IMG/VR virus record: IMGVR_UViG_3300033153_007068
Coordinates: 1-36,604 of that record
Reading direction: 5' to 3' (one strand)
DNA: 36,604 bases
Source of the DNA: a virus
This document shows positions 15,560 to 36,604 of the stretch, piece after piece. Made by a program: the position numbers and the translations under genes. Under the pieces are notes generated by a model. That model was not told where the DNA came from. It made no database searches and was given only the letters and a program-made list of their open reading frames with translations. Each line of letters begins with the position of its first letter. Position 1 is the stretch's first letter.

Positions 15560-15570
15560 GAGGTAAAAAA

Positions 15571-16002: not shown

Positions 16003-16009
16003 TTTTACA

Positions 16010-16036
16010 GGGGGTGTAAAAGCCCCCGCTTTTTTT
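16010..16036 (+). terminator. Intrinsic terminator inside the head operon
   Basis: GGGGG (16010-16014) pairs with CCCCC (16023-16027) across an 8-base loop, followed by GC and seven T. It would reduce transcription into the connector genes after the capsid and accessory genes; partial read-through is needed because no promoter is seen next to the following gene. Confidence 0.85.
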
Positions 16037-16048
16037 AGAGGTGTTAAG

Positions 16049-16273: not shown

Positions 16274-16276
16274 TAA

Positions 16277-16876: not shown

Positions 16877-16877
16877 T

Positions 16878-17276: not shown

Positions 17277-17701
17277 TGGCAGTTATAACAATTCAAATAC
17301 AAGGTGACAGGGATAGCTTGCAGAACTCCAGTGATAACTTTAAAAAAGGTTGTAAACAGGGGTTGAGAAAATCAGGCCAAATTGTTAAAAAAAGAATTGT
17401 TGAACTTATAAAAAACCCACCTAAAACAGGTAGAAAATATAGTAATTTACCAAACAGGTCTTCACAGGCTGGCGAAGCCCCGGCATTTCAAAGTGGAAAA
17501 CTTGCAAGATCTGCAAGCTACGCTGTTCATAGATGGGATGAAATGGAAGTAGGAGTAAAAGAAATTTATGGTTTGTTTTTGGAAAAAGGAACTAAAAAGA
17601 TGAAATCAAGACCTTTTATCTCTACCGCTGCAAGTCAAACATTTCAAACTGTTAAAACTGCAATAAATATGCATATCAATCAGGAAATAGGAGCTTTATG
17701 A
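17276..17701 (+). CDS. HK97 gp10-like neck/tail protein
   Basis: The 141-residue protein has the family pattern: SGQIVKKRIVELIKNPPKTG, then GEAPAFQSGKLARSASY, and a C-terminal YGLFLEKGTKKMKSRPFIST. Proteins of this HK97-gp10-like type are tail completion or neck components. It overlaps both neighbours (TAATG and ATGA) in the expected neck order. Confidence 0.85.
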   Translation: MAVITIQIQGDRDSLQNSSDNFKKGCKQGLRKSGQIVKKRIVELIKNPPKTGRKYSNLPNRSSQAGEAPAFQSGKLARSASYAVHRWDEMEVGVKEIYGLFLEKGTKKMKSRPFISTAASQTFQTVKTAINMHINQEIGAL

Positions 17702-18783
17702 ATATAAAAGGTATAGTCACCCACTTAGGGGCAAACATCCCAAAATATACAAATGAATTTTCTGAATATGAAAATCTTGTTTCTGGTGTGATACAATTTG
17801 ATAAAAGAACTATTCTTGCTACAACTGCAACTGCTCATAATTTAGTGATTGATAATTATGTAATAATAACAAATGCAGAAGTAAAAAATAATATATCTGC
17901 AATTGTAGTAAATGATGGAATCGCAACGATAACAACTCTTGCAGAACATGACTACAACTATAATCCAACTCTTGCACAACATTTTGAAATAGCAGGAAGT
18001 GAAACTGCATGGAACGGAATACACCAAATATATAACATTCCAAACAGAAACGAAATACAGATAGAACTTGATGAAACAGCACCAACAACACTTGGTTATA
18101 TTTGGGAAAACAGAGATTTGGGAGCTAATGGGATTTCTAAAATATTAACAACTCCAACAACAACAACATTTACATACAAAATAGATGATAATGCTCCGGG
18201 TTTGCCAGAGACAGAATTGAGAAATGCGGAAATGACACGAGGAACTCGTATCGCAGGCGTGGCAAACCCGGAGCGTGCAATAAAAATATATACTGAAACC
18301 TCAGCACAAAGAAAACCGTGGTTGTTTGTAATGCTTCCTGATGATACCGTCTCTAAAGATCAACATGCTTTAAGTGATGCAGTTGCCACTTTTGATAATT
18401 CCACAAGTGGAAGATTAAGAATATTAAATAATTTTGATGTTGTGGCAATACTTCCAACAACAAATTTAGGTGGGGTTGAAGAAATTGAAAAATGCAATGG
18501 TGATATAAAAAACGCTTTAATATCAACTCTTTTCGGATTAAGAAGTGAAGAAAATGTTGATATAGAATCAAGTTATCGGGCTGTGTATAATGGCAGTGCA
18601 ACTTTTGGTTATGATACAGCGACATATATTAGAATGTACAGTTTCCAAATTCCTGAGGATATAACTCTCAGCTCTACAGAATCAGACAAACCGTTATCTG
18701 TTGCTTTAAGAGATGCAGTATTAAAAATGACTTACAACACAACAACACAAACAACAAATATAAATCTTGATGAAGAGGTGTAG
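17698..18783 (+). CDS. Probable tail terminator with inserted beta domain (Mu gp37 position)
   Basis: The 361-residue protein sits where Mu-type phages encode their tail terminator. The C-terminal half (about residues 190-345, KPWLFVMLPDDTVSKD) fits that role. Residues about 36-140 hold an extra module (TATAHNLVIDNYVIIT ... WNGIHQIYNIPNRNEIQIEL) of the FCCH-like/Ig-like type often written as AHGL..GD.V.I.G. This makes the protein about twice the normal length. A comparable module lies in the baseplate protein at 33990. Function call is by position and pattern. Confidence 0.65.
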   Translation: MNIKGIVTHLGANIPKYTNEFSEYENLVSGVIQFDKRTILATTATAHNLVIDNYVIITNAEVKNNISAIVVNDGIATITTLAEHDYNYNPTLAQHFEIAGSETAWNGIHQIYNIPNRNEIQIELDETAPTTLGYIWENRDLGANGISKILTTPTTTTFTYKIDDNAPGLPETELRNAEMTRGTRIAGVANPERAIKIYTETSAQRKPWLFVMLPDDTVSKDQHALSDAVATFDNSTSGRLRILNNFDVVAILPTTNLGGVEEIEKCNGDIKNALISTLFGLRSEENVDIESSYRAVYNGSATFGYDTATYIRMYSFQIPEDITLSSTESDKPLSVALRDAVLKMTYNTTTQTTNINLDEEV

Positions 18784-18784
18784 A

Positions 18785-18994
18785 ATGAAAAAAGCAAAAC
18801 TTTTTATTACAAAAAGAAGAGTTAGCCAAGAGATTGGCGAAGGGGTACAAATTCAGCTAAAAATGAGTGGAGATTTTCCTAAGGATAGTTTTTGGAAAAA
18901 CAGACTTGTTGATGGCGACATTGAAGAAGTAAAACAAAAAATTCCAAAAAGAACAAAACTGAAAGACAACATTGAAACAAAAGGGGGTAAATAA
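18785..18994 (+). CDS. DUF2635 protein (Mu gp38-like)
   Basis: The 69-residue protein starts at ATG 18785 after GAGGTG. FPKDSFWKNRLVDGDIEEV matches the SFWxRRLxDGDV core of DUF2635, found directly before the tail sheath in Mu-type phages. The role is unknown, probably in tail assembly. Its stop shares a base with the sheath start (TAATG). Confidence 0.85.
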   Translation: MKKAKLFITKRRVSQEIGEGVQIQLKMSGDFPKDSFWKNRLVDGDIEEVKQKIPKRTKLKDNIETKGGK

Positions 18995-20559
18995 TGGGAA
19001 AACCAGATTTAAACTTGTCACTTGTTGGACAAGCAGCTCCAAGTTTGGGGGCAAGAACTGACTTGATTATCGGAAGTGTCACAAATGCTCTTGCAAGTGC
19101 TGGCAATGTTTATGAAAATTGCCAAAACAAAACGAATGCAGAACTTGACACGCTTTTCGGAGCAAGATCAATTCTAAGGGGTGCAGTAAAAAACTATATT
19201 GACAAAAACAAACAAAACAGCAGACTTGATGTTCAAACTCTCGAGCAAGATGTGGCCGCTGTTGATGCAACCGGCTCTATTACAACAGCAGGAGATGCAA
19301 CAGAAGATGGAACAATACAAGTTTCTATAGTTTCTGAAAAAGATTTTGTAGCTGATATTGACATTCTTACTGGTGATGATCTTGATGATGTACGTGGAAA
19401 AATAACGGCCGCTTTTGCAACTTCTGTTTTTTCCAACATTCCTGTTGATGTTACTACCAGTGCAACAACAGGAGTGAATACAATTACTGCTATAGATGCA
19501 GGAACAATAGGAAATGGATTTGCAATAAAAGTTGTCGGCAATGTGGCGGGTCTTACTTTTACAGTTACAGGAATGGCAAGTGGCGCAACTGATCCGACTT
19601 ATATTGCTGGAGATTTTCCAGCAACTACACGATATACAGGAGTTTTGCTTCCTAGTTGGTTTAGCTCATCTATGATAGATGTAGTCACAACAATATTAGA
19701 CGCAAGATTCAATTCAAATAATAAAATTATGGATGGTGTTGCATTTCTCGGAATGTATGATACATATGCAAATCTATTAACTTATGTTAATGGTAAAAAC
19801 TCTAAAAGTCTTGTTGTTGCTGGAAATAAAACAGCACCTGCAACAATCCCTATTCCAGATGTAGCATTAAAAGGTTCTTCTATTGTTTACCCTGCTGATT
19901 GGTCAGTCGCTTCTTTTATGGGCGTTCGTAGCATTAGGCTCACAACCGATGCTCCAATTTCTGAATATGTTATGGCAAGCGGACTAGATAATTTTGGGGG
20001 TATCGCTCTTGCTTCTCTTCCTTATTTTAACACACCTCTTGCAAATGTTCCTGTAACAAAAGCAGTTTTGTTGTTAGAAGAAACAGAAAAGTCAAATCTT
20101 GAAACTGCTGGATTTGCTGTAATTGATGTTAATGATGCAGAGAATGCAATGATAACTGGAGCAGTTCCAACAACTTACAAAACTGATACAATTGGAAATG
20201 CAGATCTTTCTTTTAAATATCTCAATTATGTAGATACAGGAAGTGCAATCAGAGAATATTGTTTTAATGCAATGAAGATTGACTTAGCACAACAGAGACT
20301 TACAGATGATACACTTGTTGCAGGCAGAAACATGCAGAATACAGGAAGTATTGAAGCTCTGTTTATGAAATATTACTCTTATCTTGCATCTCAAGTGCTC
20401 GCACAAGGTGGTGGAGAGATAACAAGTCAAGTAAGTGAGAAAACAATAGCAACGTTAAATCTTGCAACAAGAACAGTTTCGCTAATTACTGAAATTCCAA
20501 TAGTCACACAAGTAGGCACTGTAAACTGGGTAATTAAACAAGTATTTTCAATAGATTAA
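18994..20559 (+). CDS. Tail sheath protein (Mu gpL-like)
   Basis: The 521-residue protein forms the contractile sheath. It has the Mu-type arrangement: GARTDLIIGSVTNALASAGN near the start, a Ser/Thr/Ala-rich middle domain, FSSSMIDVVTTILDARFNSN, and the C-terminal REYCFNAMKIDLAQQRLTDD. GGGG in the DUF2635 tail (AAAGGGGGTAAATA) serves as ribosome binding site. A contractile sheath defines the phage as a myovirus. Confidence 0.92.
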   Translation: MGKPDLNLSLVGQAAPSLGARTDLIIGSVTNALASAGNVYENCQNKTNAELDTLFGARSILRGAVKNYIDKNKQNSRLDVQTLEQDVAAVDATGSITTAGDATEDGTIQVSIVSEKDFVADIDILTGDDLDDVRGKITAAFATSVFSNIPVDVTTSATTGVNTITAIDAGTIGNGFAIKVVGNVAGLTFTVTGMASGATDPTYIAGDFPATTRYTGVLLPSWFSSSMIDVVTTILDARFNSNNKIMDGVAFLGMYDTYANLLTYVNGKNSKSLVVAGNKTAPATIPIPDVALKGSSIVYPADWSVASFMGVRSIRLTTDAPISEYVMASGLDNFGGIALASLPYFNTPLANVPVTKAVLLLEETEKSNLETAGFAVIDVNDAENAMITGAVPTTYKTDTIGNADLSFKYLNYVDTGSAIREYCFNAMKIDLAQQRLTDDTLVAGRNMQNTGSIEALFMKYYSYLASQVLAQGGGEITSQVSEKTIATLNLATRTVSLITEIPIVTQVGTVNWVIKQVFSID

Positions 20560-23462: not shown

Positions 23463-24752
23463 ATGAGAATAGACAGCCTTTTAAAAGCAAAGTATAAAGA
23501 ATTTGAAATATTGGTATTAAGCGAGACTGAATCAGGAGGAAGAAAACTTGTAGTTTTTGATTATCCAAATTCAAGCAGCCGAACAATTCAAGATCTGGGA
23601 GGATTACCACAAACATTTACAATTCAATGCGTTTTAGCTGGATCTAGTTATTTGGCAAAAGCTGAAAGATTCAGATCACTTTTAGTAGATGGTAATTCAG
23701 GCAGTTTAGTTTTACAGTCTATAGGAACAGTGGACGCCAAAGTTGATACATATCAAAGAAATTTCAGAATTGAGCAAACAGGTATTGTTGTTTTTGACAT
23801 TACTTTCCAAATTGAAAACATGCTTGATACAAAAAAGAAATTTCCTATTGTAACTGAGCAAGATATTTATAATGAATTTTATAATAGTCAAGACACTCTT
23901 GCAAGTACAATGCTTAATTTAAAACTTGATCCAACAACAGAATTTAATACATTGATGCAACAATCAGACATAGGAACAGCTTGCAAAAATTTAAAAGAAA
24001 CTTTCGATAATGTAGAGAATGCAGCATCTAACCTTGAAAAATCTTTAGCAGAAATTAATGACATGATTTTTGACACCGCAAATTATGTTGATAGAATGGT
24101 TACAAATAGTGTTTTTGGTGAGGTTGTAGCAAGCGGAAAGAATGCCTATACAAAATGTAAGTCACTTTGCAATTATGGTTATGATTTTGTGACAAGAGTC
24201 TTAAACTCTCAAAGCACTGTCGATTTAGCAAAAGGTGGCGAGTATATAACTGATCTTGGAGAAGATTTTAATATTCCTGTTTGGGATTTTAACACAGTAG
24301 AAATTAGAGAACGAAATAAAAGCAGAATAGTTTTGACAGAAACGACAAGAGCAAATGCAATATTAACAACATTTCAACAAGTTGTTGTCAATGGAGTTTT
24401 GGGTGAAACACTAGAAGAGATAAATCTAATCAAAAATGATTTGGCAAAAATATTTGATGAACTTCTTAATGGTTCACAAGGGAAACATGTTTTTGCTGAC
24501 AATACTTTTTTGTCAGATTTAATTAATTTCAAAAATCTTATTGATAAATATATTCAACAAAAAGAAGAGTTTGTATATCATCAAACCACACTTGATGTTG
24601 CTTTTAATGTTCCATCTATTTTGAGTTATGATCTTTATATTGACGAAGAAAAAACAAGAGATAATCTTGACAAAAAAGCTGAATTACTTACTCAGATAAA
24701 TGATTACAAACAAATATTTAAAGGAATAACTAATATTCTGGAGCGTTCTTGA
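23463..24752 (+). CDS. Mu gpN-like tail/baseplate protein (DNA circulation N-terminal domain)
   Basis: The 429-residue protein starts three bases after the tape measure gene. Residues 10-120 match the N-terminal domain known as DNA circulation protein N (Mu gp43): GGRKLVVFDYPNSSSRTIQD, LGGLPQTFTIQCVLAG, then FRIEQTGIVVFDITFQIEN. The rest is helical. In Mu-type phages it is part of the baseplate hub. The stop overlaps the next ATG. Confidence 0.88.
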   Translation: MRIDSLLKAKYKEFEILVLSETESGGRKLVVFDYPNSSSRTIQDLGGLPQTFTIQCVLAGSSYLAKAERFRSLLVDGNSGSLVLQSIGTVDAKVDTYQRNFRIEQTGIVVFDITFQIENMLDTKKKFPIVTEQDIYNEFYNSQDTLASTMLNLKLDPTTEFNTLMQQSDIGTACKNLKETFDNVENAASNLEKSLAEINDMIFDTANYVDRMVTNSVFGEVVASGKNAYTKCKSLCNYGYDFVTRVLNSQSTVDLAKGGEYITDLGEDFNIPVWDFNTVEIRERNKSRIVLTETTRANAILTTFQQVVVNGVLGETLEEINLIKNDLAKIFDELLNGSQGKHVFADNTFLSDLINFKNLIDKYIQQKEEFVYHQTTLDVAFNVPSILSYDLYIDEEKTRDNLDKKAELLTQINDYKQIFKGITNILERS

Positions 24753-25828
24753 TGATTGAAATATATATTGATGGTCATAAATTTGAAGATGCAACAGAAA
24801 AGAAAATTAATCTTGATATGGCTAATATTTCTGGGAGTTTTTCATTTAGCACTGATAAAAAAGTTGCTTTTCTTTCTGGAATGATCGTTGAAATGTATGT
24901 TGATGATGAACTTATGATTGATGGATATATTGACAATGTTGTTGAATCAAACGAAGACGGATATGAAATGACTATAGAGGGCAGGGATTCTGTTTGTGAT
25001 TTAATAGACTCAAGTTTACCTGATAATTCAAAAACTATGAAAAAAGGCGTAAACCTTAGCACTATGATTCAAAACATTATCAATGATCTTGAATTAGAAT
25101 TACGAGTTGATAGTGAAGTTTTTGTTAAAGCCTTTGATAAGATCGAATCAGAAGCAGGCGAAAGCGGAGCAAATGCATTAGAATATATTATGTCTTATGC
25201 AAGAAAAAGGGGCGTTTATTTACGTACTGTTGGAAAAAACGTTGTTATTTACAGAATAGAAAACATAAAACAAGATTATTCTTTTGAAACTGGAATTAAT
25301 ATTGTTTCGAGTAAGAAGATAACTAATTTGCAAAACAGATTTTCAAAATATGTTGTCAAAAGTCAACTTCAAGGCCGTCAAGGATATGGAGGGAAAGAGT
25401 TTTTTCAAAAAGGAGAAGCAAAAGATGACTCTGTCAGAGATGGTAGATATTTAGAAATAGTAGCAACAGAAAACATGAGTAATGAAGAGTGCAAGACAAG
25501 GGCAAACGAAGAAGCAAATATTAGAAGATTGCAAAGTTTTTCTTATTCGCTTACAACTCCTAATCATTCCCAAGATGGCAAAGTTTTTGACATTACAAAA
25601 GGAGTCCGTGTTAATGACACAGCTCTTGACGTTGCTGGCCTATTTGTTTTAAACTCTGTTGAATTTTCGGAAAGTGTAGAAGACGGAGAAAAAACAACTT
25701 TAGGATTAACTTTCCCAGATGCCTACTCTTTAGATGCAAGTATGACAACAAAAACAGAAAAAAGAATTGATGTAAATGAGCATAAGCCGAAGAAAAAAAA
25801 AGGATCTTCTAAATGGTGGTTGAAATGA
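24752..25828 (+). CDS. Mu gpP-like baseplate hub protein (gp44)
   Basis: The 358-residue protein starts at ATG 24752, nine bases after GGAG (TTG 24749 is a less likely start). It has the hub fold signature: IVEMYVDDELMIDGYIDNVV, EMTIEGRDSVCDLIDSSL, and GANALEYIMSYARKRGVYLR. Related to gpD/gp27-type hub proteins that hold the central spike. It ends in a Lys-rich tail. Order gp43-gp44-gp45 is as in Mu. Confidence 0.9.
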   Translation: MIEIYIDGHKFEDATEKKINLDMANISGSFSFSTDKKVAFLSGMIVEMYVDDELMIDGYIDNVVESNEDGYEMTIEGRDSVCDLIDSSLPDNSKTMKKGVNLSTMIQNIINDLELELRVDSEVFVKAFDKIESEAGESGANALEYIMSYARKRGVYLRTVGKNVVIYRIENIKQDYSFETGINIVSSKKITNLQNRFSKYVVKSQLQGRQGYGGKEFFQKGEAKDDSVRDGRYLEIVATENMSNEECKTRANEEANIRRLQSFSYSLTTPNHSQDGKVFDITKGVRVNDTALDVAGLFVLNSVEFSESVEDGEKTTLGLTFPDAYSLDASMTTKTEKRIDVNEHKPKKKKGSSKWWLK

Positions 25829-26370
25829 ATATTTTAAACAAAATAAAAAATCTTATAAAATTTGGTTTGTTGAAAAACTTAAAAGATGAAGATCAAGACC
25901 AAATAGCCAAAACAGAATATATGGGCGTGGAACAAGAAGGGATTTTATATAATCCATATGGGTTTTATTCAAAACCTGTAAATGGTAGTCGATGCTTGAT
26001 TCACAATGTCGGCGGTTCTGAAAATAGTCAAGTTGTTTATGCTTGGAATCCAAAGAACAGGCCATCTATAGAAAATGGTGAATCTGCATTGTGGAACGAA
26101 AAAAGCAAATGCGGTGTCTATGTTAGGAATGACGGCACTATTGAAATTGATAATAAAAAAAGAAATGTTAAAATAAAAGAAGATTCGATTGTTATTGAGA
26201 ATAAAGACAGCTTGCCTATTGGTGATATTAACTGGGGAACACAAGGAATATTGGATATGGTTAAAAATTGGCGAGGGGTTGGTAATTTATCAATCCCAGT
26301 TCCCGCAGATCCAGCAACAATAGCAATAATTGAAAAAATGCTGACTGAAAGTAAGCTGGAGATCAAATGA
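25825..26370 (+). CDS. Mu gp45-like baseplate spike protein
   Basis: The 181-residue protein starts at ATG 25825 in an ATGA overlap; ATG 25813 is an alternative that adds four residues. GFYSKPVNGSRCLIHNVGG, ESALWNEKSKCGVYVRNDG and TIEIDNKKRNVKIKED match the OB-fold and beta-strand repeat of gp45/gpV-type spikes that pierce the outer membrane. The C-terminal part is short and has no clear metal-binding tip. Confidence 0.85.
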   Translation: MNILNKIKNLIKFGLLKNLKDEDQDQIAKTEYMGVEQEGILYNPYGFYSKPVNGSRCLIHNVGGSENSQVVYAWNPKNRPSIENGESALWNEKSKCGVYVRNDGTIEIDNKKRNVKIKEDSIVIENKDSLPIGDINWGTQGILDMVKNWRGVGNLSIPVPADPATIAIIEKMLTESKLEIK

Positions 26371-26888
26371 GTGATAAAATAACAAATTATCTGCCGATTG
26401 CTCAATATGAAAAACTACAACACACAATTGCAAGAAAATTGCTTGATACAGCAAGTACTTGTTTGAACAATGAAATTGCAGAAACTTCAGTACCTATATT
26501 AGGTGTTTATATTTGTGAAACTTCTTATTCTGGATATATAAGCGGATGTATGCTGGATTATATTAACAACGAATTGAAAACAGCAGAAGGAAGCTATAAA
26601 AGCATGTTGGAGTCAACAAAAGAAAGTGTTGAATCATTGTCTTTAAAAAACATGTGTGCTGTTTGGGAATCTGTTTTTTTAACTTCTCAAACAAAAGCAA
26701 TGTTGCAATTTAATACGAATATCAACCCTGCAACTTCTTTGCCTTGGGTACCTCCAGTTACTCCTTATGTAGTAGCTGAGGATTATGCAAGCTTGATTGA
26801 TTTATCATTGTTTGCACCTACGCCTTCAATTTTAGGTGGTGCAATACAAAGTTTTATGACAAGTGCATTCAGCACATACGGAGCTTAA
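26367..26888 (+). CDS. Unknown tail-region protein
   Basis: The 173-residue protein starts in an ATGA overlap with gp45, behind GGAG. A helical N-terminal half (KLQHTIARKLLDTASTCLNN) is followed by a Pro-rich segment (ATSLPWVPPVTPYVVAEDYA) and a Ser/Ala tail. No family is recognised. It opens the block of extra genes between gp45 and gp46 and is probably a virion or assembly protein because of its tight coupling. Confidence 0.65.
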   Translation: MSDKITNYLPIAQYEKLQHTIARKLLDTASTCLNNEIAETSVPILGVYICETSYSGYISGCMLDYINNELKTAEGSYKSMLESTKESVESLSLKNMCAVWESVFLTSQTKAMLQFNTNINPATSLPWVPPVTPYVVAEDYASLIDLSLFAPTPSILGGAIQSFMTSAFSTYGA

Positions 26889-26891
26889 AGA

Positions 26892-27299
26892 ATGACAAAA
26901 ATATTGAATTTAGAAAATGTGGCTTTCCCAGACACTCCTTTAAATGTGACAAGAAACAAAAAGGATTCTGTAAGCAATATAGGCACTGAACCTGTTACAA
27001 TAACAAAAATTGATAGTGATGAATCTGTGTTTGTTCCTGAAAGTGTAGAAACTCCAAAATTATATCCAAAAAGAGCGAGTGCAAATATCTATGTTGATAA
27101 TGACGGAAGTCTTGTAAATTCGAGTGGTGAATATTTCACAACAGAACCAAGCATCGGAAGCCAAATAGGCACTAGTGATGCAAACGGAAACATCACAATA
27201 GATTTAAGCGGCTTATTTGTTTCTATTGTTGATTCAGATAATTCAACAAACTTAGTTGATAGCGACAATACAACTTATATAATCGATAGCGGAGTATAA
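26892..27299 (+). CDS. Beta-rich structural protein, possibly ASH/hydin-like
   Basis: The 135-residue acidic protein begins with VAFPDTPLNVTRNKKDSVSN followed by IGTEPVTITKI, a pattern like ASH/hydin (choice-of-anchor D) Ig-like domains. The C-terminal part has Asp/Ser/Thr-rich strands (LVDSDNTTYIIDSG). GGAG eight bases before ATG 26892. Likely a virion surface or connector protein. The domain call is tentative. Confidence 0.6.
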   Translation: MTKILNLENVAFPDTPLNVTRNKKDSVSNIGTEPVTITKIDSDESVFVPESVETPKLYPKRASANIYVDNDGSLVNSSGEYFTTEPSIGSQIGTSDANGNITIDLSGLFVSIVDSDNSTNLVDSDNTTYIIDSGV

Positions 27300-27301
27300 A
27301 A

Positions 27302-28828
27302 ATGGTAACAACAAGAACAGATTTGTTTACAGAAATTACAAAATTAACAGAAACACAGATGGCTTTATTAAATGATCCCGACGATCTTTCCCCTCAAACG
27401 CACCCTATCAATAAGAAAATTTCAGGAGTAAATTTATTTTCAAGTTTTGTGAATGTTTCAGATATTTCAATTCCACAAAAGTTTTTTGTAAAAAAAATTG
27501 ACACTATTCAAGATCGAATGTTTAAAGTTTCTGATCTAACTGCAAGCGGATATGGAACAAGTAGTCAAACACTTGCAAGCGTAACTTTGCTAGATAATAC
27601 AGTTGCGGTTTTCTGTCAAAAAACAACAAGCTTGATAATGAATATCGTTCAAAATGATGGAACTCTTGGAAGTGATATAACTATAACAACAGGAAGAACA
27701 GAGCATCAATGGATCTCAGCATGTTTGCTAAAATGTGGTGAAAAAATAGCTTTGACTTTCTCAAGCGTGAGTCCTCAAAATAAATATTTAATGATTATCA
27801 ATATTGATGGTTCTGTTGCTGTTGCTCCTATTACGATAGGAACACATATGGGACTAACAACATTAAAACACACAAATGTGAAATCATTGCATAATGGCAA
27901 TATAGCAGTTATGTTCAATGAGTATTCCCCATCTGATCTATATGTTAGAATTTACACAGACACAGGTGTCGTTGTGACTACGGCTACGATTTCAACAGAC
28001 AACACACCATCTTTGTCCATGTCAATTTTACCAAATGGTAATATATTTTGTGCATGGGCAGGGGCATCAAGTACGACAGCTTTAAAATACAAAGTTATTG
28101 ATCAAGGTGGCAATGAGATCTTTTCTGAAAAATCAATCACAAAGGGATCTTCTTATGCAGTGAATCGAATTTCAACAGCGACAACAAGACAAGGCAATAT
28201 TATAATTATTGCAAGAATTGACACAGCTGTAACAGCTTTTACTGTTCAAGATGAAAGTTTAATTAATGAGGTAGAAATTTCAAGTGATTCTGAAAGTGAG
28301 GAAACAAAAATTGAATTACTCACAAATGACACTCTTGCTATAAGTTATGTTATGGAATTTGATGCAATAGATTTTGTATACACAAAAATAATAAATGAAA
28401 ATCTTGAAATATTAAATGAATTGACAAAAATAGCAACTCAGGAAGTATATCATTTAAATACGTTTATGAATGGAGATCTGTTTTCAATCATGCTGGATAG
28501 TTTTGGAAATATAGATAGAAAAGTTTTCAGATTTGATTCAGAAAGTAAAAGGATAACAGCATACACTGTATATTTTGCAGGAATTACAATCGATGCGGCA
28601 ACAGATAAACTTGTTTTTCTTACTCCTGATGATGCAGGATATAATTGCGAACTTGACAATATAGAAAATAGTTACAATTATGAATATGAGATTAAAAACA
28701 TAGGAGCTGCGGCAATAAATATCACAACAGCAGGGTCGGAAACAATTGACGGATCGTCATCTTATTCATTAGCCGGCCTATATAGTGTGAGGTTGAGACA
28801 ATATGACGGCACTTGGAGAAAATTATAA
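27302..28828 (+). CDS. Probable seven-bladed beta-propeller virion protein
   Basis: The 508-residue protein has an N-terminal domain (about residues 1-90) and seven repeats of about 49 residues from about 93 to 435. The repeat cores are LLDNTVAVFCQK, LLKCGEKIALTFSS, LHNGNIAVMFNE, LPNGNIFCAWAG, TRQGNIIIIARI, LTNDTLAISYVM and FMNGDLFSIMLD, each followed by a strand and a D/N-G turn. This predicts a seven-bladed propeller, often used to bind sugars or proteins. The C-terminal part is a small beta domain. Likely a tail-attached receptor-binding or spike-associated protein. Confidence 0.7.
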   Translation: MVTTRTDLFTEITKLTETQMALLNDPDDLSPQTHPINKKISGVNLFSSFVNVSDISIPQKFFVKKIDTIQDRMFKVSDLTASGYGTSSQTLASVTLLDNTVAVFCQKTTSLIMNIVQNDGTLGSDITITTGRTEHQWISACLLKCGEKIALTFSSVSPQNKYLMIINIDGSVAVAPITIGTHMGLTTLKHTNVKSLHNGNIAVMFNEYSPSDLYVRIYTDTGVVVTTATISTDNTPSLSMSILPNGNIFCAWAGASSTTALKYKVIDQGGNEIFSEKSITKGSSYAVNRISTATTRQGNIIIIARIDTAVTAFTVQDESLINEVEISSDSESEETKIELLTNDTLAISYVMEFDAIDFVYTKIINENLEILNELTKIATQEVYHLNTFMNGDLFSIMLDSFGNIDRKVFRFDSESKRITAYTVYFAGITIDAATDKLVFLTPDDAGYNCELDNIENSYNYEYEIKNIGAAAINITTAGSETIDGSSSYSLAGLYSVRLRQYDGTWRKL

Positions 28829-28845
28829 TAAATTTTAAAACTATA

Positions 28846-28884
28846 TTGACTTTTAAAACATAAAAGTGTAAACTATAGTTAACA
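28846..28884 (+). promoter_or_regulatory. Late promoter with palindromic operator, copy 2
   Basis: TTGACT (28846-28851), 17 bases, TAAACT (28869-28874). The dyad TGTAAACTATAGTTAACA (28867-28884) covers the -10 and is palindromic except for one mismatched pair. The same design occurs before the portal gene. It drives the fibre and lectin genes from 28906. Confidence 0.82.
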
Positions 28885-28905
28885 ATGTAAATAAGAGGTT
28901 ACAGG

Positions 28906-29559
28906 ATGGCAACAACAAACATCACAATTCCAGAACAAACATGGACAGAAATATCAACAGTGGGATGCGATTTCCAAGTATTGGGAGACAATTCAGTATA
29001 TGCTGTGTCTGCTGTTTCAGCCCCAACAGATTTAACAATTAAAAAAAACATACATCCTAAAAAGATTTATTCTTTTGCTGTAAATGGATCAGAAAAGCTT
29101 TTCATCTATTCTCCAATAGGTAGAGCAACAATCGCTTGTGACGAAGGAATTTCAGAAACAACAAAAGACGGATCTGCATATAATCCTACAACAGGAGCAA
29201 ACAGAATTGAAGAAATAGACCCCATCACTTTACACAACGTATCGGAAGAACATCTAATTAATGAAGTGAATCAAGCAGTTGGAACATACACAACCGTAAT
29301 CGATATGAAGAATTTCAAAAACGGTTCGATTCAGTGGGTGATCTCTGGCGGTGTGACAATGAAAATTTACATGTCAAACGATCCTGATGAAACAATAATT
29401 GCAGACATAACAAGCCTTGTTACAGGAGCAAGTTCACAAACTGATAATGATGGTGTTGGTTTTCTTGATACCAATATCAGAGTTGGAACAATAATGATAG
29501 AAATGACTACAACAGACACTTCAAACGCAACAGATGTTTTTATTTCAAGAGGCAACTGA
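28906..29559 (+). CDS. Virion structural / fibre-associated protein
   Basis: The 217-residue protein starts at ATG 28906 with AGAGG and AGG upstream. It is beta-rich, Thr/Ser/Asn-rich and lacks Cys clusters or membrane segments (TIPEQTWTEISTVGCDFQVL; AVGTYTTVIDMKNFKNGSIQ). It is the first gene behind the second late promoter, and its stop overlaps the next start. Composition and context suggest a virion surface protein. No firm family. Confidence 0.65.
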   Translation: MATTNITIPEQTWTEISTVGCDFQVLGDNSVYAVSAVSAPTDLTIKKNIHPKKIYSFAVNGSEKLFIYSPIGRATIACDEGISETTKDGSAYNPTTGANRIEEIDPITLHNVSEEHLINEVNQAVGTYTTVIDMKNFKNGSIQWVISGGVTMKIYMSNDPDETIIADITSLVTGASSQTDNDGVGFLDTNIRVGTIMIEMTTTDTSNATDVFISRGN

Positions 29560-30302
29560 TGGTTGCACATAAAACTAGCAGTGCTTTAGTCAAAAATTAT
29601 GCAACAGAATTGAGTGAAGGCAATATTAAAGGACGCTCACAGATGAATTTTGGCGGTAGAAATGATGCTGTTGGAACAAGTGAAGAAACTTTATGGACAC
29701 AAGGCGGAATTTATGTCTATCTTGTAGAAGACACACAGCTTTATATATCAAGCACAGACACAGACGATACTGCGGTCAATGTTGTTGTTATTGGATTGAA
29801 TGAAGCCGGGGAACAAGTTGTCAGATCAGCTACAACAAATGGTCAGAATCAAGTTGAGATAAGTGGCTTAATGTGGCGTGTTTTTGCGATGCAAGTTGTC
29901 GGAACCACAGCCCCTTTAGGAGATTTGTATCTTGCCGAGACAGACAGTTTGGATGCTGGAAAACCAGAGGACCCAGACACTATAAAAGCAAAAATGATAC
30001 AAGGCGAAAATGTTGCTACGAATGCAACTTATACAGTTCCAGCAGGAAAAAAATTGTTGCTAAAAAGACAGCGTTTGACTGTGTCCGCAGGTAAGTCCGC
30101 AAAAATCGCAATAAATGTGAGACTTCAAGGTGGATTGTTTACAAAAGTTTTTTATGAAGTTTTTGAAAAAGCGATAAGTTTTAACTATGAATATTCTTCA
30201 CCCCCATTGCCAGCTTTCACAGATATTGAGATAAGTTGTTCTGGTTCGGCATCGGGAACCGAAATATCAACATCATTGGATGGCGAATTAATAGACATTT
30301 AA
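29559..30302 (+). CDS. Phage virion structural protein (YTVPAGK family)
   Basis: The 247-residue protein has the pattern of a widespread virion protein family: GRNDAVGTSEETLWTQGGIY, SSTDTDDTAVNVVVIGLNEA, then NATYTVPAGKKLLLKRQRLT. Such proteins are found as fibre, decoration or connector parts in many tailed phages. The start shares a base with the previous stop (TGATG), so the two are probably made together. Confidence 0.72.
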   Translation: MVAHKTSSALVKNYATELSEGNIKGRSQMNFGGRNDAVGTSEETLWTQGGIYVYLVEDTQLYISSTDTDDTAVNVVVIGLNEAGEQVVRSATTNGQNQVEISGLMWRVFAMQVVGTTAPLGDLYLAETDSLDAGKPEDPDTIKAKMIQGENVATNATYTVPAGKKLLLKRQRLTVSAGKSAKIAINVRLQGGLFTKVFYEVFEKAISFNYEYSSPPLPAFTDIEISCSGSASGTEISTSLDGELIDI

Positions 30303-30319
30303 AATAAAAGGAGATAATA

Positions 30320-30703
30320 ATGAGTTTTAAGAATTTAAAACCGAAAAAAATAGAAATTAAAACAAAAGTTGGTGGCCTTACAATGGACCAACAAAAAAAG
30401 TTTATCGATTTATATGCAGATGGAAAAAGCGAGCTAGATATAAAACACTCAATGTTTAGAGAAATAAAAGGAGATTTCAGGCATTTAATAAAACCACACA
30501 TTCAGCTTTTAAAAATTACCGAAAAATTCTGTTTTTCATTGATGGAAAAAAAAGAAAAACCAACAACATTGACAGAGCTTAGAAAAACAGTAAATAACAA
30601 ATTTCCTGAATGGAATAACGAAATTATTGATTACTTGGTTGGTAAAATTGTTTCTGCAACAGGAACATTTAAAGAATATTCTGCAACTTTTAACAAGGTG
30701 TAA
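30320..30703 (+). CDS. Hypothetical basic protein in the tail block
   Basis: The 127-residue protein starts at ATG 30320 behind AAGGAG. It is helical and Lys-rich (TMDQQKKFIDLYADGKSELD; TLTELRKTVNNKFPEWNNEI), unlike its beta-rich neighbours. It may be an assembly factor or fibre chaperone. No family is recognised. Confidence 0.65.
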   Translation: MSFKNLKPKKIEIKTKVGGLTMDQQKKFIDLYADGKSELDIKHSMFREIKGDFRHLIKPHIQLLKITEKFCFSLMEKKEKPTTLTELRKTVNNKFPEWNNEIIDYLVGKIVSATGTFKEYSATFNKV

Positions 30704-30705
30704 AA

Positions 30706-31719
30706 ATGGTAACAACTAAAGTAATTGGACGAAGCGTACAAAGACTAATTGTAGAAAATGAAAGCAATCTTGTTGCAGGCTATAATTTTCAAACAAATAA
30801 TGATCAAACCGATGTTAGTTCTGCGGGTAATAACGCAACAACAACAAGCACTATGTTGAATATAACAAAACTTGGCAGAGCATTGAATTTTGACGGTGTG
30901 AAATCTCAAATGGATTGTGGAAATAGTAGCTCTTTAAAATTTAACGGTTCAGATATTGTTTTTACATATTCCATGTGGATAAAGCCCAAAAAATTAGAGG
31001 CAACAACTAAGGCTTTGTTTCACAGCAACAATTCAATTCAGTTTTTATTAATTCCTAATAAAAAAACTTATGTATATTGCTGGGGTAGCTTAGTAAATAG
31101 CGAGCTTTACGGAACCACAGAACTTCTTGAAAACACGTGGTACCATGTAGGTTTTACTATCGATAGTGACCGAGTTGGGAAACTGTATTTAAACGGAGTT
31201 GTTGAAGATTCTAAAGACATGACAGGGAGCATAGATGCGCCAACCTCCAATTTTTTTATAGGACAAAGAGGTTACAATTTAGATCAGTCATTTGACGGCG
31301 AAATTATAGTACCAAAAATATACAAAAATGAAGCCAAATCAGATGATTGGTTTGCAAAAGAATATGCAAAAAATGAAGTCATCTATTTTAAAACAGATTT
31401 TGGAGCAAATGCAAATAATACAGCTCAAACAGATATGATTGAAAACACGTTGCTCAGAGCTATTTCAGGAAGTTTTAAAGTAATTAATGATACCTACAAC
31501 AACGAAAACATAAAAGCAATTGAATGTGTAAGTTCAGGTAGTTTTGAGCTACCTATTTTTTATGGCGGCACTATTTGGGAAATGTTCTACAATAGTGGTT
31601 CTGGTTATATAAAAACAGATGGATCGGGAATTGTTTCAGGGAAAACTTTTGATATGACCACAGGTGACAAGATAATTTTGGGAAACATAACAGGTAACTA
31701 TTCTATATTTAAGAGGTAA
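30706..31719 (+). CDS. LamG-like lectin-domain virion protein
   Basis: The 337-residue protein has a concanavalin A/LamG-like domain at about residues 20-205: AGYNFQTNNDQTDVSSAGNN, LGRALNFDGVKSQMDCGNSS, TYSMWIKP, TWYHVGFTIDSDRVGKLYLN and FDGEI. This is the standard jelly-roll pattern of sugar-binding LamG_3 domains. The C-terminal part (TDFGANANNTAQTD onward) is a second beta domain. Probably a receptor-binding protein on the tail. Confidence 0.85.
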   Translation: MVTTKVIGRSVQRLIVENESNLVAGYNFQTNNDQTDVSSAGNNATTTSTMLNITKLGRALNFDGVKSQMDCGNSSSLKFNGSDIVFTYSMWIKPKKLEATTKALFHSNNSIQFLLIPNKKTYVYCWGSLVNSELYGTTELLENTWYHVGFTIDSDRVGKLYLNGVVEDSKDMTGSIDAPTSNFFIGQRGYNLDQSFDGEIIVPKIYKNEAKSDDWFAKEYAKNEVIYFKTDFGANANNTAQTDMIENTLLRAISGSFKVINDTYNNENIKAIECVSSGSFELPIFYGGTIWEMFYNSGSGYIKTDGSGIVSGKTFDMTTGDKIILGNITGNYSIFKR

Positions 31720-31721
31720 AT

Positions 31722-32156
31722 ATGCCAGCACATTTAATGAGTCACAAAGCTAAAGACTCCGCATATATAACATTAAGTGAAAATCAGACAACAGATTTAT
31801 CAGCAGGAAATCGAATCAAATTTGATACTGTTACAGGTAATTTAACAATAACTTCTAACAGAATTGCATTGACAGGTGGAAAAAAATATCGACTGCTTTG
31901 TAATGGTGTTTTTGCGAATGGCGACACAAATGCGGCTTACCTGGATTGTCAATGGTATGATTATACAAATGCGGCATTGTTGGGAAAAGCAAGCTCTTCT
32001 CTTAATGCTGCATACACTAACAACGTTTGCTCACAGCCATCAACACAAGCCGTTGTTTCTCCTGTAACAGATATTGAAGTAGAATTGAGGATAACTGCAA
32101 GTGATATAACAACAATTCACGCAGGACAAACAAGCGCCTATATAGAAGAGATATGA
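31722..32156 (+). CDS. C1q/TNF-like beta-sandwich protein
   Basis: The 144-residue protein reads DLSAGNRIKFDTVTGNLTIT, RIALTGGKKYRLLCNGVFAN, then LDCQWYDYTNAALLG and VELRITASDITTIHAGQTSA. This pattern resembles C1q/TNF-like trimeric sandwiches that form fibre tips. It follows the LamG gene by two bases and overlaps the next gene (ATGA). Likely a tail fibre knob; confidence is moderate because the call is by pattern. Confidence 0.65.
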   Translation: MPAHLMSHKAKDSAYITLSENQTTDLSAGNRIKFDTVTGNLTITSNRIALTGGKKYRLLCNGVFANGDTNAAYLDCQWYDYTNAALLGKASSSLNAAYTNNVCSQPSTQAVVSPVTDIEVELRITASDITTIHAGQTSAYIEEI

Positions 32157-33214
32157 AGAAAACAATCATAATAATTTTGACAATAATTGCACTTGTATAT
32201 TTTGAGATAACAATTGATATTAATGAAATTGTGAAAAATCAAAAGTTTTATTTTGGCACTCTAGTATCTCTAATGATTGCATTTTCTTCTATTTATTACT
32301 GGCGAAAAAAATCAGGTAGTGAAGTTGCCGACGAAAAGATTAAAAGTGAATTAAAACTACTTGAAGAAAAAACAAATAATAAGTTTGAAAAAATTGAAAA
32401 AAAAATTGATGATAATTTTAATACCTCACAAAATACAATGGTTAAAACTCTCAATAGAATTGAAACAGGTATGGATAGGTCAATGGGGAAAATAACTGGA
32501 CAATTTGTTGAATCAATCAAACTTGTTACGGAAGATTCAAGGAAAACTAGACAGTTTTTCTCTGATGAAATGTTGAAATTATCAAGAGAGGTTGCAGATG
32601 TAGCAATAACGGCAACTAATGCAGTGACAACGGCAGCAATAAACACAAAAACAATAAATAATGTTGTAAAAGAATTGAAAGAAACTCGTGCCTATTTGCA
32701 AGATAGAATTGACAATAAAAATTTAACAAAATCCTGGAAAAATGATCTTGATGATTTTGCACTTTCATCATTGAAAGATATCCAGAAAATAGCAACAACA
32801 AGAGAAGCAATAAAATCTTTAAATCAAAAATACTTAATGTTTGTGAAATTTGTTGTTGAATCATTAGAATTGATGGATTCTGAAAACAATAAAAAAATAT
32901 TGTTTCAAGATATAAAAAATTCTTTCAATGAAAAATCAACATCAATCAAATTATATATGATTGGATATGTTGGTCAAGAATTTACTGATTTTTTTTATAA
33001 AAAGCATGAAAAAGAATCTGCTAAGTATTTGAAAGTAATTAAAAAAATAATTAGCGACAAAAGGAATAATATAAAATTAAGATTTCATACATTGTCAATG
33101 AATTTTATGGAAAATTTTCTTGATTTGTACGCTCAATGTTTAGAGGAAAATGAAGATATGATAAGAGATTTTTTAAAAATAGCACCTAAAAATGATAAAA
33201 TAAATAAAAGGTAG
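32153..33214 (+). CDS. Membrane-anchored coiled-coil protein within the tail block
   Basis: The 353-residue protein starts at ATG 32153, overlapping the previous gene. Residues 4-20 and about 33-50 are two membrane segments (TIIIILTIIALVYFEI; FYFGTLVSLMIAFSSIYYW). A long charged coiled coil follows (ELKLLEEKTNNKFEKIEKKI) with an Ala/Thr segment, and then a helical Lys-rich C-terminal domain. The layout is like a two-pass membrane protein with a cytoplasmic rod. It does not look like a virion protein and may act in the host membrane, for example in superinfection exclusion or lysis control (inference). Confidence 0.75.
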   Translation: MKKTIIIILTIIALVYFEITIDINEIVKNQKFYFGTLVSLMIAFSSIYYWRKKSGSEVADEKIKSELKLLEEKTNNKFEKIEKKIDDNFNTSQNTMVKTLNRIETGMDRSMGKITGQFVESIKLVTEDSRKTRQFFSDEMLKLSREVADVAITATNAVTTAAINTKTINNVVKELKETRAYLQDRIDNKNLTKSWKNDLDDFALSSLKDIQKIATTREAIKSLNQKYLMFVKFVVESLELMDSENNKKILFQDIKNSFNEKSTSIKLYMIGYVGQEFTDFFYKKHEKESAKYLKVIKKIISDKRNNIKLRFHTLSMNFMENFLDLYAQCLEENEDMIRDFLKIAPKNDKINKR

Positions 33215-33216
33215 TT

Positions 33217-33993
33217 ATGTCAAGAGAAGCTATTGTCCAAATAAATGATATTAAAAACACGCTCATCTATGCAGTGTATACGGCAGGAACAGATTTAACA
33301 CAATGCTCTTCTGGAAATGTTGCAGTTGGTGTTGTTGTTTTAAATTCATTCCCAGATGCTGCTGGTGAATATGAATGTACTTTTTACGGAGACGGCGAAA
33401 CCTTCACCCCTCCTGACATTTCAACAATTTACAACATAAAATTCACACCTATTGTTGCAACAATATATAACGGAACATTGACAACAGATTCAACCGCAAC
33501 AAGTGAAGATACTGCAACTATTTCAGGTACAGGTGTTGTTTTAGAAATAGTAGAAATACCAACCGAAAATATGGTTGATGTTTTCCTTAATGATTCATTT
33601 TCTATTGAAATAAATGAAAGTGTGTATGATATAAAATCTACAAACAAGTTTGACACGCTTGTTTATACTCTTTTATTTACAGATGCAAGAGCTGACATAT
33701 ATTCAGAAAGCAAAGATAAAAGGGGTTGGGTTGGGGATATTGACAAAGAAGTGTTTAACAGTTTAATATGGACTACAGATCAATCAAGGCTTACAAGAGA
33801 TAATTTAAATATTATAAAAAGTTATGCTGAAAAAGCATTGCAATATATGGTGCAAGAAAAAATATGTGATAGGGTTGAAGTTAATATTATAGAATCTAGC
33901 AATAAAAACAGGAGTGCGAAACTTGAAATTTCTATTTATACAAAATCAGATATTCTTAAAGTTTATGCTCCAATCTGGGAGGTTACACAGTGA
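33217..33993 (+). CDS. Mu gp46-like baseplate protein with N-terminal ASH/hydin-like domain
   Basis: The 258-residue protein starts at ATG 33217 after AAAAGG. Its C-terminal half (about 140-258) is GP46: LFTDARADIYSESKDKRGWV, GDIDKEVFNSLIWTTDQSRL, KSYAEKALQYMV, the gp25-like wedge protein of Mu-type baseplates. Residues about 30-108 are extra: SGNVAVGVVVLNSF then IKFTPIVATIYNGTLTTDST and ATISGTG, matching the end of ASH/hydin (choice-of-anchor D) Ig-like domains. Mu gp46 is roughly half this length, so this is a domain fusion. Confidence 0.82.
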   Translation: MSREAIVQINDIKNTLIYAVYTAGTDLTQCSSGNVAVGVVVLNSFPDAAGEYECTFYGDGETFTPPDISTIYNIKFTPIVATIYNGTLTTDSTATSEDTATISGTGVVLEIVEIPTENMVDVFLNDSFSIEINESVYDIKSTNKFDTLVYTLLFTDARADIYSESKDKRGWVGDIDKEVFNSLIWTTDQSRLTRDNLNIIKSYAEKALQYMVQEKICDRVEVNIIESSNKNRSAKLEISIYTKSDILKVYAPIWEVTQ

Positions 33994-35327
33994 ATTGGAG
34001 AACAATTGAAACAATAAAAGAAATTATATTTGCATCAGCTCAAAAAACATTTGATTATAGATTAGACTTTAAAATTGCTTTGTGGGCAAAATCGTTTATG
34101 ATTGGAACTGCTGAGGCTGTTAATTCAGTTCAAACAGTTTTTAAAAACGCATTTAATATGCTTTTCCCTCAATATGCTTTAGGTGAATTTTTGGATCTTT
34201 GGGGAGAATGGGAAGGAATTGACAGAAATCTTGGTTCTAAGGCAAGCGGTTCCATAAATGCTTGTAGTGATATTACTGGAATTAATTTTCCTTACGGTAC
34301 ATTATTCCAATCTACAGATGGATTTATCTATGAGTTAACAGAAGATGTGACTACAGCAAAGGTAGAAAGCACATTGTCGAGCTTTTCGATTACAAATGGT
34401 ATTGCATATGCAGTAACAGCAACAGAGCATGAATATGCAACAGGTCAAGAAGTTGTGCTTGTTCTTTCAGAGCTTGGAACAATAACAAGCTCTGCAATAG
34501 TTGTAACAGATACTAATTCTTTTCAGTTTTCTATAGATGAAAATAATTTGACAAGTGATACAGGAACAACACATGATTTTTTTGCACTTGCAACAATACA
34601 AAGTGTTGAAATCGGACTTAATCAAAATATTGATTCTGGAAATTTACAGTTAATAGATACAATATCAGACACAAGGGATTCATCATACATTAAAGAAAAA
34701 ATAGCAAGCGGTGCTGATGTTGAACAAGATGGACCTTATAGAACAAGAATATTAAACAGCAGAAGACAAATGAAAGGAGTTTTCACGTTTGATAATGTAC
34801 AACTTGCAGGTTTGAGAGTTTCAGGAAATGATTCTATAATAAATGACCCTCCAATAACTGGAGCCGAAGATCCTGTTAAAATTGCAGGTTATCAACCACG
34901 AGCTGGAGAGACTGTTGTTTATGTTGTCAGAAGAGATTCTACCGGAAATATTGTCACACCTGTAGCACAAACTATTTTAGATGAAACAAAAGCAAAAATT
35001 ATTGAATTTGGAAAATTGCCTGCCAATACAGTTGAATCTGATGTTCATGCATTTTCTCCACTTTTGCAAGTTATTGATATGTCACTTTCAATTCTGCCTG
35101 ATACAACAAGCATGAGAACAGCTGTCGGCACTTCGATAGATGCCTTTTTTTATGATAACGAAAGATTTGACACAACAATATCCGTACAAGATATAGATGT
35201 TGCTATTAGCAAAACCTATGATTATGTGGCTGGTATAAAATTAGATGACTTCAACATTATTTCTCCAACTTCAATTACTCCTATCGCGAAACATATTCCA
35301 ATTAAAGGAGTTGTAACTTATGTCTAA
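33990..35327 (+). CDS. Baseplate J-like protein (Mu gp47)
   Basis: The 445-residue protein starts at GTG 33990, seven bases after GGAGG and overlapping the previous stop; no ATG is near. The baseplate J domain is visible as FPQYALGEFLDLWGEWEGID, SGADVEQDGPYRTRILNSRR and VYVVRRDSTGNIVTPV. Residues about 130-200 are an inserted beta module (ATEHEYATGQEVVLVLSELG; DTNSFQFSIDENNL) of the FCCH-like type. It forms the baseplate wedge that links hub and fibres. Confidence 0.9.
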   Translation: MNWRTIETIKEIIFASAQKTFDYRLDFKIALWAKSFMIGTAEAVNSVQTVFKNAFNMLFPQYALGEFLDLWGEWEGIDRNLGSKASGSINACSDITGINFPYGTLFQSTDGFIYELTEDVTTAKVESTLSSFSITNGIAYAVTATEHEYATGQEVVLVLSELGTITSSAIVVTDTNSFQFSIDENNLTSDTGTTHDFFALATIQSVEIGLNQNIDSGNLQLIDTISDTRDSSYIKEKIASGADVEQDGPYRTRILNSRRQMKGVFTFDNVQLAGLRVSGNDSIINDPPITGAEDPVKIAGYQPRAGETVVYVVRRDSTGNIVTPVAQTILDETKAKIIEFGKLPANTVESDVHAFSPLLQVIDMSLSILPDTTSMRTAVGTSIDAFFYDNERFDTTISVQDIDVAISKTYDYVAGIKLDDFNIISPTSITPIAKHIPIKGVVTYV

Positions 35328-35904
35328 CGTGAAAATAAAATATTTTAAACCACCTACTCAAGAAGAAATGGCTCGTTTTATGGCTGTTCATCTTCCAAAA
35401 GGTCGTGTCTGGAACACAAAAACAGGAACGAATTTATATAGACTTTGCTATTCTGTTGCAAGTGGTTTATTGTTTTTATATAATTTAATCTGGCAAATGA
35501 TAACAAATTTTAATATCAACACTTCCGAAGACTTGACAGAATGGGAAGAAAGTTATGATATCACACCTCCAAGTGGTGCAACCATTCAAGAGAGAAGAGA
35601 TGTTGTCAAAGCTAATGTTTCAAAAATTCCAGTTGTGACCGCCTCAGAATGGCAAATAAAGCTGAGAGATGCAACAGGAAGTTCAATCATAACTGTAACA
35701 CCTGCAAAAGATGTTACAATAACTACAACTTTTCCTAGATCCTTTCCCATTCAATTTCAGAGATTAACAACAGGAACAGAAAAAGAGAAAAGATTTGTTG
35801 TGTATGTTCAACAAATAGCAGATAAAGACGAGCAAGTACTTTGTGAAAATCTAGTTAAGAAATTCCAGCCGTCAAATGTAAAAGTTATATATATTTTAGT
35901 ATAG
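35320..35904 (+). CDS. Mu gp48-like tail protein (DUF2313)
   Basis: The 194-residue protein overlaps gp47 by eight bases. FMAVHLPKGRVWNTKTGTNL, EWEESYDITPPSGATIQERR and VVKANVSKIPVVTASEWQI match the Mu gp48/DUF2313 family, a baseplate part between J protein and the tail fibre. Length is typical. AAAGGAG lies upstream. Confidence 0.9.
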   Translation: MSNVKIKYFKPPTQEEMARFMAVHLPKGRVWNTKTGTNLYRLCYSVASGLLFLYNLIWQMITNFNINTSEDLTEWEESYDITPPSGATIQERRDVVKANVSKIPVVTASEWQIKLRDATGSSIITVTPAKDVTITTTFPRSFPIQFQRLTTGTEKEKRFVVYVQQIADKDEQVLCENLVKKFQPSNVKVIYILV

Positions 35905-35913
35905 GAGAGAATA

Positions 35914-36604
35914 ATGAGTCAAAAAAAACCTGAGGTAATTGCATTTACTCCGCCAGATGGCAATTGTTCAGAACCGTCACCGACAATCTTGAGTGCTGGA
36001 TACACAAATGGAACAGATGATTTGGATGCAGAAGAACTTAACCTGTTTGAAAGACAAAATATTCGACTTGCAAATTTCGTATTGGAAACCCAGAAAACTT
36101 TTTATGTGGACAATGCGGCTGCCGATGATACTGGAGCAGGGACAAGCGGAGATCCTTTTAAAACTATTATGGTAGGATTGAAAGCGGGTGGCAGTTATGG
36201 ACACTATGCAATACAGTTAATAACAGGATTTGAATATGAAATTGATGAAGATTTTGAATTGTCAAATTCTTCTGTTATCATTGTTCCACAAGGAACAGCA
36301 AAGGTAAAATTTAAATCCTATGTTTCTGGTTCTAATAGTAAACATTATTCTATAGTTTTAAGAAATAGTAGCATTGATATTCAAGGCAACTCCATAATGG
36401 AAGATGTTGTTAGTCCTGCTACAACAAACTGGGATTCAACAAATACAGGCTGTATTGTTGCAAGAGAAGGTTTTTGTAATATAAAATTCAGTAGTGTTGA
36501 GATAAAAAACGATATTGGCACTGCTACGACAAAATCATACAATCGCTTTATATTGCAAAGAGAAGGAACTTTTCTTAACATGTATTGTGATTCTGGAGCA
36601 TTAA
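35914..36604 (+). CDS. Tail fibre protein with beta-helix start, incomplete at window end
   Basis: ATG 35914 follows AGGAGAG and opens a frame with no stop before the window ends, so at least 230 residues are encoded and the C-terminus is missing. Residues 1-60 would attach to the baseplate. TFYVDNAAADDTGAGTSGDP followed by FKTIMVGLKAG is the usual entry motif of right-handed parallel beta-helix domains, found in fibres and tailspikes that bind or cut surface sugars. The following sequence shows repeated short strands (SSVIIVPQGTAKVKFKSYVS). Its position after gp48 fits the main tail fibre. Confidence 0.8.
   Translation, partial: MSQKKPEVIAFTPPDGNCSEPSPTILSAGYTNGTDDLDAEELNLFERQNIRLANFVLETQKTFYVDNAAADDTGAGTSGDPFKTIMVGLKAGGSYGHYAIQLITGFEYEIDEDFELSNSSVIIVPQGTAKVKFKSYVSGSNSKHYSIVLRNSSIDIQGNSIMEDVVSPATTNWDSTNTGCIVAREGFCNIKFSSVEIKNDIGTATTKSYNRFILQREGTFLNMYCDSGAL

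Follow-up and report, generated by a model that had tools for sequence, protein, structure and literature searches.

A nine-gene block between the spike and wedge genes of a Mu-type baseplate operon in a metagenomic virus record

We analysed the IMG/VR virus record IMGVR_UViG_3300033153_007068 as a single window of 36,604 bp, which is the entire record, and found that the baseplate operon of its Mu-type contractile tail is interrupted between the genes for the central spike (gp45) and the first wedge protein (gp46). Nine tightly packed open reading frames (ORFs) on the same strand (g1 to g9; 26367–33214) part gp45, which ends at 26370, from gp46, which starts at 33217. The parts of this block are of known kinds, and nothing in the loci that we surveyed matches where it lies or how large it is; a literature search, restricted to open-licence papers, also returned no published match to its position and size. 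We hold, with about even confidence, that the block is an accessory cassette of virion proteins (adhesins) that entered the operon at the gp45–gp46 junction and would be co-expressed with the baseplate genes. The spike-to-wedge gene junction is among the steadiest in contractile tails, and nine genes at this site would show the uptake of a whole cassette, beyond the swapping of fibres after gp48.

The gp45–gp46 junction in the window and in other Mu-type loci

The identity of gp44 to gp47 was verified by alignment to eight phages, including D108, martha 12B12, PY223 and TJ1. In nearly all of these eight phages gp45 and gp46 were neighbours, while in Silvanigrella phage L006 one gene of 70 amino acids was found between them. 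For a wider survey, profiles of four genes were run against the aligned phages and 160 Mu-type loci drawn from IMG/VR and from GTDB genomes (the hub profile search was made with a four-member alignment), and the gap was measured from the end of gp45 to the gp46 domain; the largest gap visible was about 8–9 kb, because the flanks of the loci were 10 kb. The window had a gap of 7,225 bp, compared with a median of about 11 bp among 157 other loci, where the 95th percentile was about 540 bp and the largest value 2,149 bp. Ten additional loci showed gaps of at most 1,831 bp, and the gap of the window is more than three times the largest among the 167 other loci. This comparison bears out the initial annotation, according to which the two genes are normally adjacent, and marks the interruption as exceptional. 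The same annotation had counted eight intervening genes, with a membrane protein as the ninth; the intervening genes were confirmed, and nine is the correct count.

Gaps above 150 bp were present in about 11% of the surveyed loci, mostly with one or two small genes. The next largest gap (L173) held genes of non-structural appearance, one of them on the opposite strand, and a long locus without a detected gp46 (L124) appeared to be truncated after gp45. In a prophage of a Planctomycetaceae metagenome-assembled genome (MAG; L166), a single gene of 336 amino acids (11465–12475) was located exactly between gp45 and gp46; it had a weak match to the second domain of Mtd (E 6e-4, under the cutoff) and no similarity to the block of the window. 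At other sites of the surveyed loci we observed a 2.4 kb insert between gp44 and gp45 (L044, 11101–13526), a phage lysozyme gene between the same two genes (L096, 7016–7450; PF00959, E 8.8e-48) and, in Chromohalobacter phage YPCBV-1, a diversity-generating retroelement (Avd, reverse transcriptase) that follows the tail genes (L005, 12437–14170).

Despite the interruption, the Mu-type operon order gp44-45-46-47-48 is preserved in the window, and all genes of the operon and of the block lie on the + strand with a spacing of −16 to +17 bp, except for 77 bp before g4. The gp44-type baseplate hub (24749–25828; phrog_177, E 2.7e-48) was aligned with eight known hubs, and the gp45-type central spike (25813–26370), whose match to PF06890 was just below the cutoff (E 3e-4; 21.1 bits against 24.1), aligned to eight known gp45 proteins. 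Downstream of the block we identified three wedge genes, of the gp46 type (33217–33993; PF07409, E 4.2e-15, residues 147–242, and alignment), the gp47 type (33990–35327; PF04865, E 3.2e-20, and alignment) and the gp48 type (35320–35904; phrog_203, E 3.5e-10), followed by the start of a presumed tail-fibre gene (35914–36604, + strand), which was assigned by its position and translation and had no Pfam match. The record is a fragment, because this last gene is truncated by the record end.

The spike and two of the wedge proteins are themselves unusual in the window. An HxH iron site forms the end of the Mu, P2 and Sf14 spikes (PMC11821841; for the Mu apex, PMC11915804), and no HxH was present in the last 60 residues of the window gp45. 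It shares a short, helical-looking tail at its end with a class of HxH-less gp45 proteins (L006, L095, L261 and L266–L268), and in four of these loci (L006, L095, L261 and L268) a small gene of roughly 70–94 amino acids directly follows gp45. By alignment, gp46 is extended at its N terminus by about 126 residues (33217–33594), and gp47 has an inserted stretch (about 34359–34620) that is weakly common to the near relatives L018 and L019 (phmmer E 4.5e-4 and 1.8e-3). The gp46 protein of L054 (11914–13599) is also long, with one or more extra domains before and after the GP46 domain. We infer that the HxH-less gp45 and the extended gp46 of the window are candidate docking sites.

The genes of the block and the PHROG 8198 family

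Two proteins of the block had strong family matches. The protein g7 (337 amino acids; 30706–31719, + strand) contains a LamG/concanavalin-A-like lectin domain at residues 85–208 (about 30958–31329), as had been proposed from the sequence; this assignment is solid, with PF13385 far over its Pfam cutoff (E 4.1e-20; 72.9 bits against 27.6). It also matched phrog_8510, a family of virion structural proteins (E 6.6e-11). The protein g5 (247 amino acids; 29559–30302, + strand) belongs to the phrog_8198 family (E 1.4e-22; residues 17–245 against positions 42–260 of the 262 of the profile), and at least 373 relatives of g5 were present in IMG/VR. In many phages the family adjoins major capsid or virion-structural (connector-region) genes; its place in cyanophages is between gp16 and gp17. 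Cyanophages and marine phages (e.g. Syn1, S-RIM44) encode their PHROG 8198 protein by a single gene next to the terminase, connector or capsid genes, whereas g5 lies inside a baseplate operon. A single fusion was seen: in L236 (7098–8717) the PHROG 8198 domain makes up the C-terminal end of a long, repetitive protein that resembles a fibre. Of 43 records with g5 relatives, 4 also had a LamG domain, a share that does not exceed the 4 out of 47 among Mu-type records.

The AlphaFold2 model of g5 (predicted local distance difference test score, pLDDT, 83.7; predicted template modelling score, pTM, 0.79) is beta-rich, and its fold matches cover the N-terminal as well as the C-terminal half. The best matches among solved structures, with Z scores of 7–9 that are middling by the tool, were virus protrusions, the trimeric cement protein of a Helicobacter phage, the knob/petal of the phi812 spike and the tail fibre of an Agrobacterium phage. 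These matches show only a common beta arrangement, and we rejected the assignment of one known function to g5 by structure. Matches of g5 to polyubiquitin were judged to be repeat artefacts, with no stretch passing alone. The gene places a widespread and unexplained family of marine phages in a tail-tip gene setting, which offers a testable route to its function.

The remaining genes gave fewer matches. The protein g8 (144 amino acids; 31722–32156, + strand) matched over residues 12–143 a domain of phrog_12269 (E 7.6e-8), a family without an assigned function; it had no Pfam C1q match, and the earlier description of it as C1q-like was not confirmed. A similar outcome was obtained for g3 and g4, described at first as a propeller and as fibre-like, respectively. 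In g3 (508 amino acids; 27302–28828, + strand) seven stretches of about 45–50 amino acids resemble propeller blades by eye only, there was no family match or other profile or structural support, the leave-one-out repeat test failed, and the AlphaFold2 model, made without an alignment, had a pLDDT of 35, too low to be of use; g4 (217 amino acids; 28906–29559, + strand) had no convincing family match and no profile or structural support for a fibre.

The first gene, g1 (173 amino acids; 26367–26888, + strand), had no Pfam, PHROG or NCBIfam match of weight, and could not be aligned to the small genes that follow gp45 in L006, L095, L068, L261 and L268 (hhalign probability 0.1). No convincing family match was found for g2, an acidic protein of 135 amino acids (26892–27299, + strand); a FlgG-like NCBIfam match scored 20 bits, well short of the cutoff of 350, and was discarded. 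The basic protein g6 (127 amino acids, isoelectric point 9.6; 30320–30703, + strand) had no family match and is possibly a non-virion protein or an assembly factor. Finally, g9 (353 amino acids; 32153–33214, + strand) has one or more N-terminal membrane segments (hydropathy maximum of 2.48 at residue 5) and a long basic region that is probably a coiled coil, with no family match over the cutoff, and is unlikely to be a virion adhesin. In g1 to g8 neither a membrane nor a signal segment was found.

Besides the tail genes (sheath, tape measure, DNA-circulation protein, hub, spike and wedges), the window encodes an HK97-type head (Terminase_3, Phage_portal, S78 protease and major capsid protein). 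No transposase was found among the subset of left-arm ORFs that were scanned in this fragment. An Imm5-like protein (PF21805, E 4.5e-8) is encoded by the leftmost part of the record (5–598), and a gene upstream of the terminase (6649–7077) had a weak M15 peptidase match (E 0.005) and is a possible endolysin.

Origin, expression and placement of the block products

In a tree of hub proteins the window was sister to L019, with a support of 96 in the Shimodaira–Hasegawa-like approximate likelihood ratio test (SH-aLRT). None of the nearest rows of the tree by path (L019, L049, L021, L025 and L020) had a gap above 150 bp, and gp45 and gp46 were within about 10 bp of each other in L019, L020 and L021. 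The simplest reading is that the block was gained in the lineage of the window, because its nearest relatives in the hub tree lack such a gap. These relatives are distant, with a best hub identity of 33%; single-protein scans of IMG/VR with gp47, gp44, g3 and g4 returned no close relatives, and a scan with TerL returned four distant ones, none with a match to the hub of the window. In L021, an array of the same kind, made up of small, structural-looking genes in the size class of the block genes, follows gp48 (14478–19829), which is the usual place. The occurrence of the same genes elsewhere in relatives had been named in the initial annotation as contrary evidence: relatives of g5 do sit elsewhere, as do the LamG domains of other Mu-type phages, and the parts of the block are therefore mobile modules, but the block as a whole was found in no other locus examined.

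Spacing inside the block is −4 to +17 bp apart from the 77 bp that precede g4; the start codon of g1 overlaps the stop codon of gp45 (ATGA), and 2 bp separate g9 from gp46. The GC content of the block is 0.33, against 0.345 for the tail genes, with 0.335 as a second value for comparison, and the ranges of GC at third codon positions (GC3) overlap, so there is no shift in composition. A consensus scan found no terminator-like site at either border of the block, and no convincing flanking repeats that would mark an insertion were found there. A late promoter of its own had been attributed to the block. The promoter-like site, TTGACT-17-TAAACT (28846–28874, + strand), which was read from the sequence and matches 9 out of 12 positions, lies between g3 and g4, in the sole sizeable intergenic gap; it is inside the block, not ahead of it. 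Promoter-like sites were no commoner than chance (97 found against 81 ± 9.7 expected from shuffles), although the consensus may not be that of the host. Transcription of the block is better explained by read-through from upstream.

We propose that the late operon would be transcribed through the block, so that spike, wedge and block proteins would be made together. The exposed proteins that join the particle would number at least three (g5, g7 and g8), with g3 and g4 as probable further members. Their most likely place would be the baseplate or its vicinity, where the extended gp46 or the enlarged gp47 would dock them and where weak multivalent binding of host-surface glycans could supplement the product of the fibre gene after gp48. 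In favour of this reading are the exceptional gap, its lack in the hub-tree neighbours, the common orientation, tight spacing and composition of the nine genes, the LamG domain, the gene context and fold of the g5 family, and the related arrangements in L166 and L021. The proteins g1 and g2 may complete the HxH-less spike, and g6 and g9 probably have other roles, in assembly or at the host membrane. More tentatively, and with a rather low probability in our estimate, the cassette could form a second layer of host recognition, in which separate small adhesins are docked between spike and wedge through the extended gp46 and through a spike that lacks HxH and has its tip as a separate piece, all encoded in one cassette. 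If true, this would be a baseplate architecture undescribed for simple myophage baseplates.

Several points weigh against an adhesin cassette at the baseplate. The block is known from its genes alone, from which we infer virion incorporation, and the record is a fragment with no close relative known. Homologues of g5 usually adjoin head or connector genes and not baseplate genes, and the fold matches of g5, at Z 7–9, are near the reported background of the tool. Five of the proteins (g1, g2, g4, g6 and g9) are without a family, and the fold of g3 is unproven. Finally, a search for a common N-terminal docking peptide among the block proteins gave best pairs at p 0.0025–0.005, which is not significant over 132 tests.

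The block could instead be a mixture from separate events, with g1 and g2 serving the spike (tip or assembly), g3 to g5, g7 and g8 being adhesins, and g9 acting at the host membrane, for instance in superinfection exclusion or lysis. The small genes right after gp45 in four other HxH-less loci point in this direction, and g9 is unlike the rest in kind. Gaps above 150 bp were also more frequent without HxH (15 out of 41 loci, against 4 out of 117 with HxH; raw counts), but this association was not significant once relatedness was allowed for (independent-pairs test on the tree, median p 0.125), and g1 has no similarity to the small post-gp45 genes. We consider a mixed origin rather unlikely.

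A further reading, which we regard as doubtful, is that the products are virion proteins of the head or neck, such as capsid fibres or whiskers, and that only their genes lie in the baseplate operon. Relatives of g5 adjoin major capsid protein, terminase or connector genes, its fold resembles, among others, that of a trimeric cement protein and those of capsid protrusions, and Sf14, which combines an HK97-type head with a Mu-type baseplate, bears two capsid decorations and two sets of neck whiskers (PMC11821841). Phage structural genes, however, usually lie near those of their assembly partners, and the block is inside the baseplate genes; moreover, gp46 and gp47 are enlarged in the window, and one relative of g5 is part of a fibre-like protein. 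The family context of g5 favours a head or neck placement, and the position in the operon a placement at the baseplate.

Moron-type cargo appears improbable; on this reading the genes would benefit the host or act against competitors, have no part in the particle, and lie in the tail operon by chance. The membrane-protein-like g9, the basic g6 without relatives, and the opposite-strand and other non-structural-looking genes in the same gap of L173 are what such cargo might look like, but morons have been described as mostly single genes with their own promoter and terminator and a different composition (PMC4378225), and here nine coupled genes of shared composition encode virion-type domains. 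With no composition shift, no terminator-like site at its borders in the consensus scan and no signal peptides in g1 to g8, the block does not look moron-like. A chimeric contig that joined an unrelated adhesin operon into the baseplate operon is very improbable: the junctions come from a single metagenomic record with no close relative that has them, but both are tight, GC, GC3 and strand are unchanged across them, and two unrelated misjoins, both exactly at gene borders, would be needed.

Comparison with known systems

The baseplate operon of Mu and D108 has the same order of hub, spike, three wedges and fibre, with genes of the same families as in the window. The window differs from it by the nine extra genes between the spike and the first wedge, the lack of HxH, the enlarged gp46 and gp47, and the HK97-type head genes. 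Shigella phage Sf14 (Mooglevirus) resembles the window in its combination of head and baseplate types, and has extra surface proteins on the virion, which in the window are represented by genes only; in contrast to the window, its hub, needle and wedge genes are consecutive (gp46–gp50) with the fibres after them, and its needle retains HxH (PMC11821841). The Planctomycetaceae prophage (L166) also has a structural-looking gene in the gp45–gp46 slot, but one gene and not nine. A comparable logic to that of the proposed cassette is found in the evolved Dit proteins of lactococcal siphophages, where carbohydrate-binding modules have been added to a tail-tip protein and were shown to aid adsorption to sugar-coated hosts (PMC10688798). 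In those phages the domains are inserted within one siphophage protein (PMC10688798), whereas the proposed adhesins of the window are encoded by separate genes of a myophage operon.

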